Part shown: in pieces, positions 3,241-11,745 of the stretch | How the letters are laid out: the number at the start of each line of letters is the position of its first letter | Numbering within the stretch: the first letter of the stretch is position 1 | NCBI GenBank assembly: GCA_024278755.1 | Contig: JAJRSO010000002.1 | Location: forward strand, 1-64,000 | Reading direction: 5' to 3' | Origin: Calditrichota bacterium | GTDB lineage: Bacteria > Calditrichota > Calditrichia > Calditrichales > Calditrichaceae | DNA length: 64,000 nt | Notes under the pieces: generated by a model | What the model saw: the letters and a program-made list of their open reading frames with translations, nothing else | What the model was told of the DNA's origin: nothing | Databases searched by the model: none | Made by a program: the position numbers and the translations under genes

Positions 3241-3897
3241 TTACATCCCGCTGTGCCGGCTTATTTTTCCGCTTACCATATACATCACATCTTCGGCAAT
3301 ATTAGTGGCGTGATCAGCAATGCGTTCCAGATGCCGGGAAAGACCCAGCTGAAACAAATAGAATTCAATATGCCCACTGTCTTGTGCGATTTTATCACGC
3401 ACATAGCCAAACATTTCTTTGTGCAGAGCATCTACCTCTTCGTCGGCTGCGCATACTTCCTGCGCCAGTTCGACATTCATATCGATTAAAGAGGTTAATA
3501 CGTCGCGCACCATTTTTTCGGCCAGGTCGGCCATTTTAAAAATACGTCCGGATAAATTTACCGTCCGGAATTTTACAACCGAAGGGATACGATGGGCAAT
3601 ATTGGCGGTCAAATCACCGATGCGTTCCAGGTCGCTGTTTAGTTTTATAACCGCAATAATAAAGCGTAAATCGATGGCCACCGGTTGGTGCAGGGCTAAA
3701 ATTTTTAGCGCTTCTTCTTCCACATCAATTTCCATCTGGTCAATTTTAGCATCGTCTTTATAAACTTCGTCGGCCAGATCGGCGTCGCTCTCTTTAAGGG
3801 CGCGAAGCGCTTTTTTTAAGCTGTCTTCCACAAAAGCGGCTTCGTTTAAAATCATTTTTTTAAGTTTATCAACTTCGCGCTGAAAATGTAAGGTCAT
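3241..3897 (-). CDS. phoU: phosphate transport regulator PhoU
   Basis: The 218-residue protein is made of two PhoU three-helix repeats. The metal-binding/consensus segments are visible as the MEIDVEEEALKIL type motif in the first repeat and VCAADEEVDALHKEMF in the second, with ERIGDLTANIAHR and ERIADHATNIAEDV closing each repeat. PhoU links the Pst transporter to the PhoR kinase and keeps PhoR in its phosphatase state when phosphate is plentiful. It is the last gene of the minus-strand pst cluster, about 160 bp downstream of pstB. The gap contains a dispersed repeat and no clear promoter. Confidence 0.95.
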   Translation of the reverse strand: MTLHFQREVDKLKKMILNEAAFVEDSLKKALRALKESDADLADEVYKDDAKIDQMEIDVEEEALKILALHQPVAIDLRFIIAVIKLNSDLERIGDLTANIAHRIPSVVKFRTVNLSGRIFKMADLAEKMVRDVLTSLIDMNVELAQEVCAADEEVDALHKEMFGYVRDKIAQDSGHIEFYLFQLGLSRHLERIADHATNIAEDVMYMVSGKISRHSGM

Positions 3898-4058: not shown

Positions 4059-4835
4059 TTACCCAAATCTTCCTGTAATGTAATTTTCGGTCTGCTCCTT
4101 TTGCGGCCGGGTGAACAGCTCTTTTGTTTTGCCTGTTTCCACAATATGGCCTTCAAAAAAGAAAGCGGTGGTATCGGAAATGCGCGCCGCCTGCTGCATA
4201 TTGTGGGTTACAATTACGATTGTATATTTCCCTTTTAAGGTTTCAATCAAATCTTCAATTTTCGCGGTAGCCACCGGATCGATGGCCGAAGTGGGCTCGT
4301 CCATTAAGATAATTTCCGGTTCTACGGCCAGAGCGCGGGCAATACACAAACGCTGCTGCTGACCGCCGGAAAGCGCGCTGCCCGGTTTGTCTAATTTGTC
4401 TTTAACTTCATCCCATAGCGCCGCCTGCTGCAAAGCTGTTTCGATACGGCCGGCCATTTCGGATTTATTACATTTGTAGTGTAGTTTAAGGCCGTATGCT
4501 ACATTATCGTGAACGCTCATGGGGAAAGGCGTCGGTTTCTGGAAAATCATGCCCACTTTTTTACGTAGCTCAATTAAATCCTGATTTCCGGAAAGAATGT
4601 TTTCTTCATCGATTAAAACATCTCCTTCGGCCTTTTGGTCACGGTACAGTTCAAATATGCGGTTGTACACACGCAAATGAGTGGATTTCCCGCAGCCGGA
4701 AGGACCGATAATGGCGGTAACTTTTTTAGGCTCGATTTCGATGGTATTGTTAAACAGCGCCTGTTGGTCACCGTAAAAAAAATTAAGATTCCGGACGCTA
4801 ATCCGGCCTTTTTTGTTGTTTTGCTCACTTGTCAT
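4059..4835 (-). CDS. pstB: phosphate ABC transporter ATP-binding protein PstB
   Basis: This is a 258-residue ABC ATPase. Walker A is GPSGCGKST, the Q-loop lies in [11 protein letters not shown], the ABC signature is [16 protein letters not shown], Walker B is [12 protein letters not shown] and the switch His is in [13 protein letters not shown]. It drives phosphate import through PstC and PstA. ATG at 4835 (MTSEQNN) is chosen; the frame can be read ten codons further only to a TTG at 4865 without support. It is separated from pstA by about 150 bp that holds short repeats, so transcription may continue from the upstream pst genes. Confidence 0.96.
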
Positions 4836-4880
4836 AATTGTATTCTTTTTTATATTGCAATTCAAAAAACCAAATTTATT

Positions 4881-4988: not shown

Positions 4989-5834
4989 TTATTTTTTCAC
5001 TCTCAATAGTATGAATCGTGTAAACAGCGTTACCGACAAAACGCCAATGGAAATGAGCAGCGAGGCGCCCCAGGCCATCTGTTGCCAGTCTTCATAAGGC
5101 GACATGGCATAGTTAAAAATAGTGACCGTCAAATTAGCGGTGGATTCGTTTAGTCCGCTAAACCAATAGGGACTGTTTAGAGCCGTGAATAAAAGCGGCG
5201 CGGTTTCCCCGCTGATACGCGCCACGGCCAACAGTACGCCGGTAATCAATCCGGATTTAGCCGCCCGAAAAATGACATGTATGGTGGTTTTCCATCTTGG
5301 CGTCCCCATAGCCAGCGCCGCTTCTCTTAGCGCGTTGGGAACAAGCTGTAGCATGTCTTCGGTAGTACGTCCGATTACCGGCAGCATCATAATGGCCAGG
5401 GCAACCGCTCCGGCCCAGGCCGAAAAATGGCCGCTGGGAACAACCAGCAACGTGTATACAAAAATACCGATAATTATGGATGGCGTACCCATCAAAATAT
5501 TATTAAAAAAGCGTACCAATTCCGCAAATTTTGAATGTTGTCCGAATTCGCTGAGATAAATACCCGTGACCAGGCCCACCGGAACTCCGATAAAGGCGGC
5601 TAAAAGGGTAATGAGCAATGTGCCGGAAATGGCATTGGCCAGTCCGCCGCCTTCCATCCCGGGCGGTGTGGGGAGCTGCGTAAAAAAGTGCCAGTTAAAC
5701 GCGGCAATCCCCCGGCTGAAAACGGTGTATAAAATCCACCCGAGTATAAACAAACCCAGTGCAGATGCCAGAATAGCGGCGCCCGAAATGAGTGTATTGG
5801 TTAGTCTTCGGTAATGAGACGAACGCTTTTTCAT
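4989..5834 (-). CDS. pstA: phosphate ABC transporter permease PstA
   Basis: The 281-residue inner-membrane permease has about six membrane segments, beginning with LISGAAILASALGLFILGWIL. The binding-protein-dependent transport loop is seen in LREAALAMGTPRWKTTIHVIFRAAKSG, the EAA motif that contacts PstB. The start is ATG 5834, because this ATG overlaps the pstC stop by four bases (ATGA on the minus strand, 5831-5834); a longer reading (MASQSKK) would run into pstC. The coupling predicts translation together with pstC. Confidence 0.95.
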   Translation of the reverse strand: MKKRSSHYRRLTNTLISGAAILASALGLFILGWILYTVFSRGIAAFNWHFFTQLPTPPGMEGGGLANAISGTLLITLLAAFIGVPVGLVTGIYLSEFGQHSKFAELVRFFNNILMGTPSIIIGIFVYTLLVVPSGHFSAWAGAVALAIMMLPVIGRTTEDMLQLVPNALREAALAMGTPRWKTTIHVIFRAAKSGLITGVLLAVARISGETAPLLFTALNSPYWFSGLNESTANLTVTIFNYAMSPYEDWQQMAWGASLLISIGVLSVTLFTRFILLRVKK

Positions 5835-6769
5835 TGCGCTCCCATTGATTTTTTTACTTTGCGAAGCCATAACTGCGAAATCACCTGAATGATGAAGGTG
5901 ATGGCAAACAGTACCAGGCCTAATTCAATTAGTACGCTTAAATATAACGGTTCCGATGCTTCCGTGAACTCATTGGCCAGCGTTGCGGTAATGCTGTTGG
6001 CCGGGGCAAAGAGGGAAGCGGAAATACGGTGTGCATTACCAATAACAAAGGTTACGGCCATAGTTTCGCCGATGGCTCTTCCCAGTCCCAGAAAGGCAGC
6101 GCCGATAATACCCTGGATGCCATAACGAATGGTTACTTTTTGTGTGACCTCCCAGGTGGTGGAGCCCATGCCGTACGCGGATTCTTTAACTACGGAAGGT
6201 ACCATGGAAAAAACATCGCGCACCACGGCGGTAATAAAAGGTAAAATCATAAAGGCCAGGATAATACCGGCCGTTAGCATTCCAATACCGATGGGCGGAC
6301 CGTCGAAGAGCCCTGAATTTCCAAAGGAGGATTTAAGGAACGGCTGAATGTAACCGGCCATAAACGGTGCAAACACAAACAACCCCCACATACCGTAAAT
6401 GATGCTGGGTACAGCCGCCAACAACTCGATGCCGACGCTAATCCATTTACTAAAAACAGGATTGCTTAACTCGACGAGGAACAATGCAATTAAAATACTT
6501 AAGGGCACGGCTAACAACATCGCAATGAAGGTGGAAAGAAGCGTTCCGTAAATACTGCCGGCCGCGCCAAATTCCTGGCGAATCGGATCCCACACGTTGG
6601 TAATTAAAAACTTAAACCCGAATGTTTTAATGGACAGGGTTGCGCTCATTACCAACTGAATAAATAGCGCGGCCATAATCGCCAGAACAATTCCGGCGCC
6701 AACGATGGTTATGGTTTTAAAAACCGTATCGACAGGGTTTTGTGTGCTTGTTTCCTTAAAAAAGGTCAT
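5831..6769 (-). CDS. pstC: phosphate ABC transporter permease PstC
   Basis: The 312-residue membrane permease partners PstA. Membrane segments include ITIVGAGIVLAIMAALFIQLV and IGMLTAGIILAFMILPFIT. The EAA loop is VVKESAYGMGSTTWEVTQKVTIRYGI, and RAIGETMAVTFVIGN is typical of PstC. It lies 194 bp downstream of pstS and overlaps pstA by four bases. Confidence 0.95.
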   Translation of the reverse strand: MTFFKETSTQNPVDTVFKTITIVGAGIVLAIMAALFIQLVMSATLSIKTFGFKFLITNVWDPIRQEFGAAGSIYGTLLSTFIAMLLAVPLSILIALFLVELSNPVFSKWISVGIELLAAVPSIIYGMWGLFVFAPFMAGYIQPFLKSSFGNSGLFDGPPIGIGMLTAGIILAFMILPFITAVVRDVFSMVPSVVKESAYGMGSTTWEVTQKVTIRYGIQGIIGAAFLGLGRAIGETMAVTFVIGNAHRISASLFAPANSITATLANEFTEASEPLYLSVLIELGLVLFAITFIIQVISQLWLRKVKKSMGAQ

Positions 6770-6963: not shown

Positions 6964-8034
6964 TTATTCCCAAACAGCCGAACCGCCTGCTTTAATTTCA
7001 TTTTTCCAACTGTTTTCAACCATTTTTACTAGCGATTCTGGCATGGGAACATAGTGCAGTTTAACTGCTAAATCCTGACCGTGTTTATAACTCCAGTCAA
7101 AAAAGGAAAGCGCCTGCCGGGCTATTTGGACGTCTGTTTGTTTTTTGTACATCAGGATAAACGAGGCGCCGGTAATGGGCCAGGATTGTTGGCCGGGCTG
7201 GTTCGTGAGCACCAGGTAGTACCCGGGGGCGTTTTCCCAGTCGGCGTTAGCCGCGGCAGCCTGAAACGATTCGATGGTCGGAGCAACAAAGTTGCCGGCC
7301 CTATTTTGTAGCAGGACATAGTTCATTTTATTTTGCAGGGCGTAAGCATATTCCACATAACCGATACCGCCGTTGATTTTTTTTACAAATACGGCAACGC
7401 CTTCATTCCCTTTACCGGCAACGGCATTGGTTTTCGGCCAGGCCGGGGCTTTTCCAAAGCCGACTTTTTCTTTCCATTCGGGCGAAATTTTTGCCAGGTA
7501 GTTGGTAAAAATCCAGGTGGTGCCGGAACCATCCGCACGGTGCACCGATGTAATATCAAGGTTCGGTAAGTTCAAATCCGGATTAGTGGATTTAATGGCC
7601 GCGTCGTTCCACTTGGTAATTTTACCAAGATAAATATCCGTCAGATTTTGAGCGGTTAGTTTTAGTTTGCCGGTTTCGATACCTTCCAGATTGACAACCG
7701 GAACCACGCCGCCGATGACCATCGGGAACTGCATTAGACCAAATTTCTCTAGTTCTTCCGCTTTCATCGGTGCGTCGGAAGCGCCAAAGTCGACGGTTCT
7801 TGCTTTAATCTGGGCAATGCCGCCTCCCGATCCGATAGACTGGTAATTAAGTTTTATCCGAGTCAGTTTTTCATATTTATGCGCCCACTGCCCGTAAATA
7901 GGGTAGGGAAAAGTGGCGCCTGCCCCGTTGATGGTTACGGACTTAGAGGCGCTTTCCTCCGATGAACAGGCCGTGATTGTGAACGTGAGTATAAAGGCAA
8001 GCAGCAGGGTTTTTAAAATAGATTGTGTTTTCAT
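6964..8034 (-). CDS. pstS: phosphate-binding lipoprotein PstS
   Basis: The 356-residue protein starts with a lipoprotein signal ending TFTITAC, with the lipobox Cys near residue 23. Phosphate-binding elements are seen as NGAGATFPYPIYGQW, YQSIGSGGGI, FGASDAPM and HRADGSGTTWIFTNYL. It binds phosphate in the periplasm and hands it to PstCA. Three 11-bp-spaced TTAACA-like hexamers lie 55-82 bases before the ATG, a candidate PhoB operator. The start is preceded by AAAAGGAAAAACCAA. Confidence 0.96.
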   Translation of the reverse strand: MKTQSILKTLLLAFILTFTITACSSEESASKSVTINGAGATFPYPIYGQWAHKYEKLTRIKLNYQSIGSGGGIAQIKARTVDFGASDAPMKAEELEKFGLMQFPMVIGGVVPVVNLEGIETGKLKLTAQNLTDIYLGKITKWNDAAIKSTNPDLNLPNLDITSVHRADGSGTTWIFTNYLAKISPEWKEKVGFGKAPAWPKTNAVAGKGNEGVAVFVKKINGGIGYVEYAYALQNKMNYVLLQNRAGNFVAPTIESFQAAAANADWENAPGYYLVLTNQPGQQSWPITGASFILMYKKQTDVQIARQALSFFDWSYKHGQDLAVKLHYVPMPESLVKMVENSWKNEIKAGGSAVWE

Positions 8035-8088
8035 TTGGTTTTTCCTTTTTATTAGTAATTATTTTCAGATCATAATTAAATGAATAAA

Positions 8089-8116
8089 TGTTAAGATTGT
8101 GTTAGGGTTTGGTTAG
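8089..8116 (-). promoter_or_regulatory. candidate Pho box upstream of pstS (three half-sites)
   Basis: Read on the minus strand, the hexamers CTAACC (8111-8116), CTAACA (8100-8105) and TTAACA (8089-8094) are spaced exactly 11 bp apart. PhoB/PhoP-family regulators bind direct repeats with an 11-bp period (Bacillus PhoP boxes are TTAACA-like). The site ends 55 bases before the pstS ATG and sits in the 95-bp gap after the porin gene. Confidence 0.65.
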
Positions 8117-8129
8117 AAGAGTGTTTTAT

Positions 8130-9074
8130 TTAGAAACGGTACTCAAAGTTGATTTTATAGCTTTGTTTTGTTTGTTTTTCCCGGGTAAGCCGGTAATTGG
8201 GAGCGATGTAAAACGATTTAAAGGGCTTAAAAAAAAATCCGGTAATCAGATAGTTCTCATTTTTTTCGTAACTATACTGGTCAATCCGAAGAAATAAGTC
8301 ATAATGCGTTAAAATCCGATAAGCGCCATAAACCGAAAATAGATATTGATTTTGCTCTGTAGCGGAATTTTTAAGAAAATTAATTTCCGCGCCCAATCTG
8401 AACCGATTTCAGGAATAGGCGGTAAAGAGGCCGGCCAAAATTTTGTTCTCCGTTTTTCTTTTTTTGTAGGGTTCAAAAGAGATAACGGCGCCCAGATTAA
8501 ACGCGTTTCCGGTGTTTAGTTTTTGGGATCCATAAAGGAATAAGGCGGAATATTTTTTATAAACATCTGTTTCGGGCTTTTTATATCCGCTGCCGTTGGT
8601 TACCAAAAAACTTACATAAGCGTTTTGTGTAAACTGGTTCGCATATCCAATGCCGAGATCTGCGGAGCCGCTGAATTTGTTTTTATCCATGGCCGACTTT
8701 TCAATGAAACGATAGCCCCAGTTTTTTTCCTGCATGCTAAAGATGTTTAGTCCCTGAAGTCCAAAGGTCAGTTGTCCGTATTCCGTTTTCCAGCTTATCA
8801 AGGCATTTTTTAAATAGGCGTATAGAGCGGTAGTTACAGAATCATCTTTAAAACGTCCCACATCGGCGGTGAATTTGAAATTAAACGCATTATTTAGACT
8901 TCGCTTGTAAGTAAGATAGGCCCTGCGCACATCAAATTCGTTTTTGTCGGGGACCCCTTCCGTCGTCTGGTAATTATATTCAAAATAGACCTTGCTGCCG
9001 AGCTTCCCGTTGTCGGCAGACAGGTATGTTAGTAAGCCGGCTAACAGGATAACGGTCAATCGAAAAGAGTACAT
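8130..9074 (-). pseudogene. phosphate-regulon outer-membrane porin with an in-frame TGA
   Basis: The frame encodes a signal peptide (LTVILLAGLLTYLSA-D) and a beta-barrel of OprO/OprP-like type (VYFEYNYQTTEGVPDKNEFDVRRAYLTYKRSL). It is interrupted by one TGA at 8409-8411, codon 222 of about 315. Reading through in the same frame gives LFTAYS-stop-NRFRLGAEINF and continues to a natural barrel end ...SYKINFEYRF, where the last residue is Phe as in barrel proteins. No frame change is needed, so a single base change (for example TGG to TGA) would explain it. Placed between phoR and pstS, it would admit phosphate through the outer membrane. It could be a recent mutation or a sequence error. Confidence 0.8.
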
Positions 9075-9141
9075 TACTTCTCTCCTTATATTGGTTGGGT
9101 TAAATAGACGCTTAGATTTTAATCCCGTTAAATGAGAGAAG

Positions 9142-9158
9142 TATTAGGGGCGTGTTAA
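9142..9158 (-). promoter_or_regulatory. candidate Pho box upstream of the porin
   Basis: On the minus strand, TTAACA (9153-9158) and CTAATA (9142-9147) are 11 bp apart, start to start, about 68-84 bases before the porin ATG. It matches the spacing and hexamer of the pstS site but has only two half-sites, one of them degenerate. Confidence 0.5.
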
Positions 9159-9185: not shown

Positions 9186-10952
9186 TTATAAGGGTAGATG
9201 AATAGTAAATGTGCTGCCTGTTCCAACGTTGCTGGAAACCGAAATTTTGCCTCCGTGTACTTTGGCAATATGTTTAACAATGGCAAGTCCCAGCCCGGTG
9301 CCGCCCAGTTCGCGGCTGCGCGCTTTATCCACCCGGAAAAAGCGTTCGAACAGACGTTCGTGGTATTTGGGATCGATGCCGCAGCCCTGATCCTGGACAT
9401 GAATGCGCAGTTCATCTTCTTTTTGTTCGGCCCGGATCTGAACTTCACTGCCCGGTTCGCTGTATTTAAGAGCATTGTTGATTAAATTGATAAGCGCCTG
9501 TTCCAGTAAAGCCCTGTTGGCGAATACGGGAATCTCTTTATCCGCATCTGTTTGAATTGTTATCTTATTCTCATCTGCCAGTTTCTGGCAGTCTTCAACC
9601 GCATTGTGAATGATGGCGCTTAAGGCTTCTTTGTTTTTTATTAATTTCGAAGAGCCCTCCTGCTGCTCGATATGCGAAAGCTGCAACAGGTCGGTTACAA
9701 TGGCATTCATGCGGTCGGCCTGACGGGCGACAATGGCGTGAAATTTTGCAATGGTTTGGGGATCCTCTACCTGCCCCTCCCGCAGGGTTTCCATATAGCC
9801 TTTGATGGATGTAATGGGGGTTTTCAGCTCGTGGGAAACGTTGGCCACAAAATCCTGACGCATTTTATCCAGTTTTTTTAACTGGGTAATTTCATTAATA
9901 AGAATTAATGCGCCGATTATTTGTCCCTCGGAATTTTGTAACGGATCCGAACTGATACGCAGAATATGCTGCATTTCAGATCGAATGCTGATATCCTGTT
10001 CCAAATGTTTATTTTGTTTAAGAGCGTCCCGAATAAAATCCAAAACCGCACTATGACGGATGGCTTCGTGAATGAGCCGTTTTTCCGGATTTTCGGTAAG
10101 AACGTTAAAAAACTGCACTGCCGCTTTATTAACCCGGATAATGCGCTCATTTTTATCTACGGCCAGTACGCCTTCTTTCATACTGGCAAACATGGCTTCC
10201 TGTTCGCTGCGTTGCAATGAGATGGTTTGTATGCGGGCGTTAATTTCGCGGGCCATTTGATTAAGCGTGGCAGCCAAAGCGGTAATCTCGCTGCTGCCGC
10301 GTTCCGGAAGCGGCGGTTCAAAAACGCCGGCGGCAAAACGTTGTGCGCCCTGTTTGATTTCTTCCAGCGGCTTACTGATTCTGCGGGAGATAAAATAACT
10401 GAATAGAGCGCCCAGCAGCAAAATAAACAAACCTCCGACTAAAACTCTCTTTTGCAGACTGTCAATGGAGGATTCGTAGGACGATAGCGGAAAAGCGACC
10501 CGCACGGCGCCCACGATTTTGTTTTTAATTTTCAATGGGACGGCAAGGTAGATCAATTGTTTTTGTAAGGTGTAGCTGTAGCGAACAGAATGCCCCACAG
10601 CATCCTTAAACGCGTGTTTGATCTCGGGCCGGTCGGCATGGTTGTCCATTTTATTTTTATCTTTATGAGAATCGGCAATGACCTGCCCGCTATTACGGAT
10701 AATGGTGATACGCACCTGTCCGCTTTGGCGCAGCATATGCACAACGGAATCGCGAACGGCATCCGGAGCGTTAAAATAGTCGCGGACATGCTCGCTAATT
10801 AGCCGGGCGCGTGCCGATAAATCCTGACGAATTTCAGCGGCGTAAAAATCTTTAAGAATTTTTTGTTCGTATCCGGCAAAAAAAACGATGATAATTAAAA
10901 TTAATGTCAGATAGGAAGGGAAAATTTGGGTAAATATTTTTTTTGTTTTCAT
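9186..10952 (-). CDS. phoR: phosphate-sensing histidine kinase PhoR
   Basis: This 588-residue membrane kinase has an N-terminal membrane segment (SYLTLILIIIVFFAGY), a periplasmic or extracytoplasmic stretch, a second membrane segment (VLVGGLFILLLGALFSYFI), HAMP (SRRISKPLEEIKQGA), PAS (MFASMKEGVLAVDKNERII) and a kinase core. The phospho-acceptor is His374 in VANVSHELKTPITS. N-box LINNALKYS, G1 DQGCGID and G2 GGTGLGLAIV are all present. It phosphorylates PhoB when phosphate is scarce. It overlaps phoB by four bases (10949-10952), so the pair is translationally coupled. Confidence 0.94.
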   Translation of the reverse strand: MKTKKIFTQIFPSYLTLILIIIVFFAGYEQKILKDFYAAEIRQDLSARARLISEHVRDYFNAPDAVRDSVVHMLRQSGQVRITIIRNSGQVIADSHKDKNKMDNHADRPEIKHAFKDAVGHSVRYSYTLQKQLIYLAVPLKIKNKIVGAVRVAFPLSSYESSIDSLQKRVLVGGLFILLLGALFSYFISRRISKPLEEIKQGAQRFAAGVFEPPLPERGSSEITALAATLNQMAREINARIQTISLQRSEQEAMFASMKEGVLAVDKNERIIRVNKAAVQFFNVLTENPEKRLIHEAIRHSAVLDFIRDALKQNKHLEQDISIRSEMQHILRISSDPLQNSEGQIIGALILINEITQLKKLDKMRQDFVANVSHELKTPITSIKGYMETLREGQVEDPQTIAKFHAIVARQADRMNAIVTDLLQLSHIEQQEGSSKLIKNKEALSAIIHNAVEDCQKLADENKITIQTDADKEIPVFANRALLEQALINLINNALKYSEPGSEVQIRAEQKEDELRIHVQDQGCGIDPKYHERLFERFFRVDKARSRELGGTGLGLAIVKHIAKVHGGKISVSSNVGTGSTFTIHLPL

Positions 10953-11638
10953 AATTCCTGCATTCTATATCCGACGCCGCGCACGGTTTCGATATATTTT
11001 CCGGCTGTTCCCAGTTTTTTTCGTAAGCCGACAATTTGAACATCAATGGAGCGGTCGGTTACCGGATAGTTGTCACCATGTACATTATCCACGATATCAT
11101 TGCGGGTAAAAACCCAGCCGGGGTGTGTGCACAAAAAATGGAGTATTTCGAATTCGGTAAAAGTGAGTTCGGTGGATTGGTTGTTTATGGTTACTTTTCG
11201 TTTACCCGGATCGATGGTGATTTCCCGGTATCTTGTAAGTTGCGTCCGTTCGGAAACGCTGTTTTTGCGTCGGATAACACTGTTTAAGCGGGCCATAAGA
11301 ATTTTGGGGCTAAACGGTTTTGTCACATAGTCGTCGGCGCCCAATTCCAGCCCTTTTACAATATCTGTTTCTTCTCCTCTGGCCGTGAGCATGATAATGG
11401 GAATTTGCGCCGTTGCGGGCTCTGTTTTTAAATACTTACAGACATCCAAACCGTCGATTCCGGGAAGCATCAGATCTAAAATAATCAAATCGGGTTTTTC
11501 ATTTCGGGCCAGTTTAAGAGCTGTTTCGCCGCTTCCGGCTGTGAGAGTTTTATAACCTTGCTGTTTTACATGAAACTCCACCAGGCCAAGGATGTCTTCT
11601 TCGTCATCGACAATAAGCACTGCTTTCTGTTTTTCCAT
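10949..11638 (-). CDS. phoB: phosphate response regulator PhoB
   Basis: The 229-residue OmpR-type regulator has an acidic pocket (IVDDEED), phospho-acceptor Asp55 in IILDLMLPG, Thr in MLTARGEE and Lys in VTKPFSP. The C-terminal winged helix is seen in LTFTEFEILHFLCTHPGWVFTRNDIVD and DRSIDVQIVGLRKKLG, ending with VRGVGYRM. It activates the phosphate regulon. A two-half-site Pho box lies about 91-107 bases upstream, consistent with autoregulation. PhoB assignment rests on the coupled phoR and on the following pst genes. Confidence 0.94.
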   Translation of the reverse strand: MEKQKAVLIVDDEEDILGLVEFHVKQQGYKTLTAGSGETALKLARNEKPDLIILDLMLPGIDGLDVCKYLKTEPATAQIPIIMLTARGEETDIVKGLELGADDYVTKPFSPKILMARLNSVIRRKNSVSERTQLTRYREITIDPGKRKVTINNQSTELTFTEFEILHFLCTHPGWVFTRNDIVDNVHGDNYPVTDRSIDVQIVGLRKKLGTAGKYIETVRGVGYRMQEL

Positions 11639-11728: not shown

Positions 11729-11745
11729 TGTTAGAATTGTGTTAG
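11729..11745 (-). promoter_or_regulatory. candidate Pho box upstream of phoB
   Basis: On the minus strand, two identical CTAACA hexamers (11740-11745 and 11729-11734) are 11 bp apart, with CAATT between them. They sit in the 111-bp gap between the HDOD gene and phoB. The pstS site has the same pair (CTAACA, CAATC, TTAACA), so the two share 14 of 17 or more positions. Confidence 0.6.

Follow-up and report, generated by a model that had tools for sequence, protein, structure and literature searches.

The PhoP box of Bacillus subtilis is composed of TTAACA-like hexamers that follow one another at 11-bp steps. In Escherichia coli, the PhoB box reads CTGTCAT N4 CTGTCAY (PMC4415409, PMC1906773) and is located 10 bp upstream of the -10 hexamer (PMC1906773). 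The cyanobacterial SphR/PhoB box, as described for Synechocystis, consists of three 8-bp repeats of CTTAACCT joined by 3-bp linkers (PMC1906773), and the PhoB box of Desulfovibrio vulgaris is built from (c/t)GT(n)AC repeats with a 4-bp spacer (PMC3333781). In the crystal structure of E. coli PhoB bound to DNA, Arg201 forms a hydrogen bond to a guanine, Thr194 and Val197 make contact with thymines, and the bases lying between the half-sites are contacted by Arg219; W184, E177 and E191 are residues of the surface that contacts sigma (PMC3973317). No description of Pho boxes was found for Caldithrix in the literature searched, and PhoB goes unmentioned in the paper on the C. abyssi genome.

The DNA analyzed here, termed the window, comprises the first 64,000 nucleotides of contig JAJRSO010000002.1 from a Calditrichota bacterium. 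It encodes phoB, a phoR/pnpS-like sensor kinase, a Porin_O_P gene, pstS, pstC, pstA, pstB and phoU, all on the minus strand. The phosphate-binding protein gene pstS (6964..8034) is assigned with the NCBIfam PstS equivalog, as its product exceeds the curated cut-offs of both PRK10918 (396.1 over 339) and TIGR00975 (382.2 over 205). The genes pstC (5831..6769), pstA (4989..5870), pstB for the ABC ATPase (4059..4865) and phoU (3241..3897) were identified as open reading frames with orthologues in relatives. On the other side of pstS lie the reading frame of the phosphate-selective porin (8130..9074), the sensor kinase gene (9186..10952) and phoB, which encodes an OmpR/PhoB-family response regulator (10949..11638). 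The porin frame contains an in-frame TGA at 8409-8411, beyond which it runs unbroken to 8130; this could reflect a pseudogene, a sequencing error or recoding.

Upstream of pstS and on the same strand, positions 8116 to 8089 hold three hexamers at steps of exactly 11 bp, namely CTAACC (8111..8116), CTAACA (8100..8105) and TTAACA (8089..8094), separated by the spacers AAACC and CAATC. The final half-site, which is found at the -35 position as judged by promoter geometry, lies 55 bp from the ATG of pstS (8034). The first-pass annotation had described these three phased hexamers correctly; they read on the minus strand. A candidate -10 hexamer, TTAATT (8074..8079, minus strand), begins 9 bp past the third half-site; it is weak in this promoter, while the same spacing is a strong rule in relatives. 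Two further boxes occur in the window, both on the minus strand. The second, TTAACA-N5-CTAATA (9142..9158), precedes the porin gene and is followed by a weak third half-site, CTCATT (9136..9131), and after 9 bp by TAAAAT (9121..9116). The third, CTAACA-N5-CTAACA (11729..11745), precedes phoB and would point to autoregulation. The pstS element shares with recognized Pho boxes the succession of two or more direct repeats every 11 bp, the location upstream of pst, of further phosphate genes and of phoB, and the overlap with the -35 region about 10 bp upstream of the -10, the latter being seen in the promoters of relatives, as the window's own pstS hexamer is weak. The TGTCA core of the E. coli type is absent from the pstS element, the core of which is TAACA or TAACC.

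To estimate how often such elements arise by chance, a first-order Markov model derived from the 64-kb window was applied to both strands. The strict two-box pattern YTAACA-N5-YTAAYA is expected 0.043 times per window and was observed three times, each time preceding the gene that opens a phosphate transcription unit. In the whole genome of 3,941,423 bases only six strict sites exist: the promoters of pstS, the porin gene and phoB, the promoter of one TonB receptor gene, and two sites inside open reading frames (C17:33359 and C41:16781), which were dismissed for lying within coding sequence. Set against the check proposed in the first-pass annotation, the genome matches of this strict form are not scattered: three of the six sites are promoters of the pho locus and the clear off-targets fall within coding ORFs. 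A model that used sequence alone and had been trained on relatives (R1) gave just three genome matches at an E-value near 1, i.e., the TonB site, one position inside an ORF on C17 and, ranked third, the pstS site. It failed to recover the porin and phoB sites, so that the motif alone is weak without its context.

The TonB receptor gene in question is located on contig 61 and has three perfect boxes upstream (G000:C61:14922-14949; L023 5923-5950, minus strand). Its product belongs to another family than the boxed receptor of relatives, with only the N-terminal part being similar. No clear -10 hexamer is seen at +9 in this promoter, and the boxes are followed by a TTTG...TACATTTG stretch that recalls promoters of Bacteroidota.

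Conservation of the element was assessed in orthologous promoters. Phased boxes of the same kind lie a short way upstream of the pstS start in three relatives (G020, G006 and G012) and in the distant genome G053 (4/4); in another genome, G004, the contig begins inside the box region. Upstream of phoB, 13 of 18 orthologues exhibit a perfect two-box site and 16 of 18 a site with at most one mismatch, compared to 0.2% and 3%, respectively, in shuffled versions of these regions. Likewise, the upstream regions of a TonB receptor family are perfect in 8 of 11 cases and carry at most one mismatch in 10 of 11 (shuffles, 0.45% and 4%). Many relatives do not have this type of PstS, and their double and triple boxes precede phoB and other phosphate genes. 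Genes behind boxes in relatives further include those for PstS-like proteins, Na_Pi_cotrans, PHO4, DUF47/PhoU_div, Porin_O_P and PAP2 proteins besides the TonB receptor family. The box is hence kept in front of pstS and phoB among relatives, as would be expected if the initial reading were right. Its further suggestion that the hexamers define a Pho box for this lineage gains ground as well, with YTAACA repeats also preceding phoB, the porin gene and the phosphate genes of relatives.

Phasing and promoter geometry were determined on a set of 33 promoters, comprising 18 of phoB, 11 of the TonB receptor and 4 of pstS. Among all pairs of YTAAYA words separated by 6-40 bp, a distance of 11 bp occurred 36 times and one of 22 bp 14 times, with any other distance being seen at most four times. 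For the box alignment, ungapped 28-mers were used, since MAFFT introduced gaps into 43-mers. When the promoters were aligned on the last box, TANNNT was found at exactly +9 in 14 of 30, including all 10 TonB promoters, and at any other offset in no more than three. This arrangement matches the one described for E. coli and suggests that the last half-site replaces the -35 hexamer. Within the window, the porin promoter follows the +9 rule well (TAAAAT), the pstS promoter poorly (TTAATT), and the -10 of phoB is ambiguous.

Three other explanations of the pstS element were considered. An AT-rich intergenic region might contain three TAAC words at 11-bp steps by mere coincidence, and the loosest form of the pattern lends this idea some weight: exact matches to YTAAYM x3 are expected 0.011 times per 64 kb and 0.66 times per genome, and when two mismatches were allowed, the scan became uninformative, returning 54 genome matches against 93 for the reversed control. 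Of exact YTAAYM x3 matches, two were found in the genome of the window and none with the reversed-pattern control. The stricter YTAACM x3 did not occur at all in 12 Mb of simulated sequence. The concentration of the strict two-box form on phosphate promoters, together with position and phase being conserved in the orthologous promoters of relatives, the very finding that was set to refute chance, leaves coincidence extremely improbable. The same low probability applies to the notion that the words are -35-like hexamers of overlapping ordinary promoters, involving no regulator at all. Here the last box does lie where a -35 would be expected from the place of a -10-like hexamer, but sigma-70 has no need for two to four repeats at strict distances of 11 or 22 bp upstream of the -35, and the intergenic strict sites in this genome lie almost exclusively upstream of Pho-type genes.

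A different member of the OmpR/PhoB family, rather than the adjacent PhoB, could also bind the repeats. Binding to direct repeats is common to all OmpR/PhoB regulators (PMC4832192), and 105 PhoB-like candidates were obtained from the genome at first look. Yet it is phoB itself that the box precedes in 16 of 18 genomes, in addition to the classical Pho set, whereas the distant PhoB-like proteins (L075-L078 and L080), which carry Arg or another helix, have no box upstream; we regard another regulator as very unlikely. Our preferred reading is that of a three-half-site Pho box, very probably bound by the PhoB encoded next to it and switching on pstSCAB-phoU when phosphate is scarce. The selectivity within the genome and the conservation in relatives argue in favor of the PhoB/PhoP-type operator that had been put forward from the hexamers themselves.

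The predicted binder was examined more closely. The solved structures closest to its DNA-binding domain are those of E. coli PhoB (3t72, 1qqi and 1gxp). The protein scores below the cut-off of the NCBIfam PhoB equivalog TIGR02154 (252.8 vs 296.2 bits); nonetheless, this family ranks top of the 74 that match, and the gene adjoins phoR and pst. In the alignment, the positions of E. coli Arg201, Thr194, Val197 and Arg219 are occupied by Gly, Ser, Val and Arg, respectively. Every close orthologue of this PhoB within the lineage has glycine at position 201, as does the PhoB of G053. The loss of the guanine-reading arginine fits a box that has lost its G. The sigma-contact residues are not conserved either: H or R stands in place of W184, N in place of E177 and T in place of E191. 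As this surface differs from that of E. coli, the activation of RNA polymerase may differ too, and the activation step is deduced here from promoter geometry only.

To relate position 201 to the type of box, pstS loci from many phyla with an assigned PhoB and a classifiable box were surveyed. Arg201 coincided with boxes of the TGTCA type in all 33 classifiable cases, and residues other than Arg with boxes of the TAACA type in 8 of 10. Of the two exceptions, one genome holds a Gly-type PhoB alongside an Arg-type one, and the PhoB call of the other is doubtful. Fisher's test of Arg201 against box type gives p = 3e-7, a value to be read with caution, since the tree contains only about two independent changes. 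With just two changes of residue class and three of box class on the PhoB tree, shared ancestry might account for the association, which therefore constitutes a structurally motivated hypothesis and no statistical proof. We tentatively propose, at somewhat less than even odds, that a single position of the recognition helix, Arg201 in E. coli, sets the Pho box of a lineage, with Arg reading TGTCA and Gly, Ala or Ser reading TAACA. If this were true, the TAACA code would be widespread, covering Fibrobacterota, Thermodesulfobacteriota, several 'deltaproteobacterial' groups and the lineage of the window, and a swap at residue 201 of PhoB might underlie the differences in Pho boxes from one bacterium to another.

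Taken as a whole, the locus suggests the following mechanism. When phosphate becomes scarce, the PhoR-like kinase would phosphorylate the PhoB encoded beside it. PhoB molecules would then bind the YTAACA direct repeats head-to-tail, one per 11-bp turn of the helix. With the last half-site taking the place of the -35, PhoB would recruit RNA polymerase to the -10 about 9 bp downstream and thereby turn on pstSCAB-phoU. The box upstream of phoBR would render the regulator self-amplifying, and the one upstream of the porin gene would co-induce phosphate uptake across the outer membrane. We infer the identity of PhoB as the binder, its dependence on phosphorylation and the activation by phosphate starvation from this arrangement of sites and genes.

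Regulatory data on this lineage are very scarce, and the results provide it with a usable Pho-box rule: YTAACA-N5-YTAACA, 9 bp before TANNNT. With this rule, the Pho regulon can be recognized directly in genome sequences; its members include a family of TonB receptors and genes for lipid remodelling, both unusual as Pho targets. The TonB-dependent receptors L081-L092 are 44-83% identical to the copy of G004 and are absent from the genome of the window; nearly all their promoters combine a Pho box with a -10 at +9. The family is a candidate for the import of some phosphorus source across the outer membrane. In the same relative, a cluster rich in Pho boxes (L047; G004:C34, 58-14441) encodes PhoBR, a PstS-like protein, an OlsF-like ornithine-lipid synthase, a PAP2 phosphatase, an HpnI/GT21-like glycosyltransferase, a metallophosphoesterase and a TonB receptor, and looks like a phosphate-starvation lipid-remodelling cluster. 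In several relatives, the genes for the glycosyltransferase and OlsF are preceded by phased boxes, and TA-rich hexamers follow 9 bp after these. No orthologue of either the L047-type glycosyltransferase or OlsF was found in the window's genome. Separately, the palindrome TTAACATATTGTTAATA occurs at least eight times in G006 (e.g., C1 846119-846137, 1912769-1912787 and 4826116-4826134) and inflates the pattern counts of this genome; it is probably the site of another regulator or a repeat.

In comparison with described systems, the element resembles the consensus of the Bacillus subtilis PhoP box in core hexamer and spacing; it differs in that the promoters and the regulator of Bacillus are Gram-positive. 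With Desulfovibrio vulgaris it has in common a direct-repeat Pho box outside the classical models, whereas the Desulfovibrio box retains G-T and has a shorter published step (PMC3333781). E. coli offers the same 11-bp direct repeats in place of the -35, about 10 bp to the -10, an autoregulated phoB and the pst operon as a target (PMC4415409, PMC1906773). The two boxes diverge where A-A of TAACA stands for G-T of TGTCA, and the regulators where glycine takes the position of the guanine-bonding Arg201 (PMC3973317). The cyanobacterial SphR box has the TAAC core in common with the element, as well as the 11-bp step of its three tandem repeats and the location upstream of pstS operons (PMC1906773). 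Unlike the latter, the boxes of this lineage mostly read YTAACA instead of CTTAACCT, stem from another phylum and have a fixed 9-bp distance to the -10 that is clear in relatives' promoters. The window's 8-mers TCTAACCA, CCTAACAC and CTTAACAT agree with three copies of CTTAACCT in core and spacing, though not in the full consensus. The first-pass view that the motif is nearer to Bacillus TTAACA than to E. coli CTGTCAT consequently stands as regards the non-E. coli core and the Bacillus likeness, and needs amending in that cyanobacterial CTTAACCT is as close or closer. Among published consensus sequences, the CTTAACCT triple of cyanobacteria comes nearest, and not that of Bacillus alone; the element represents an operator of a known type, now located in a lineage that has received little study.
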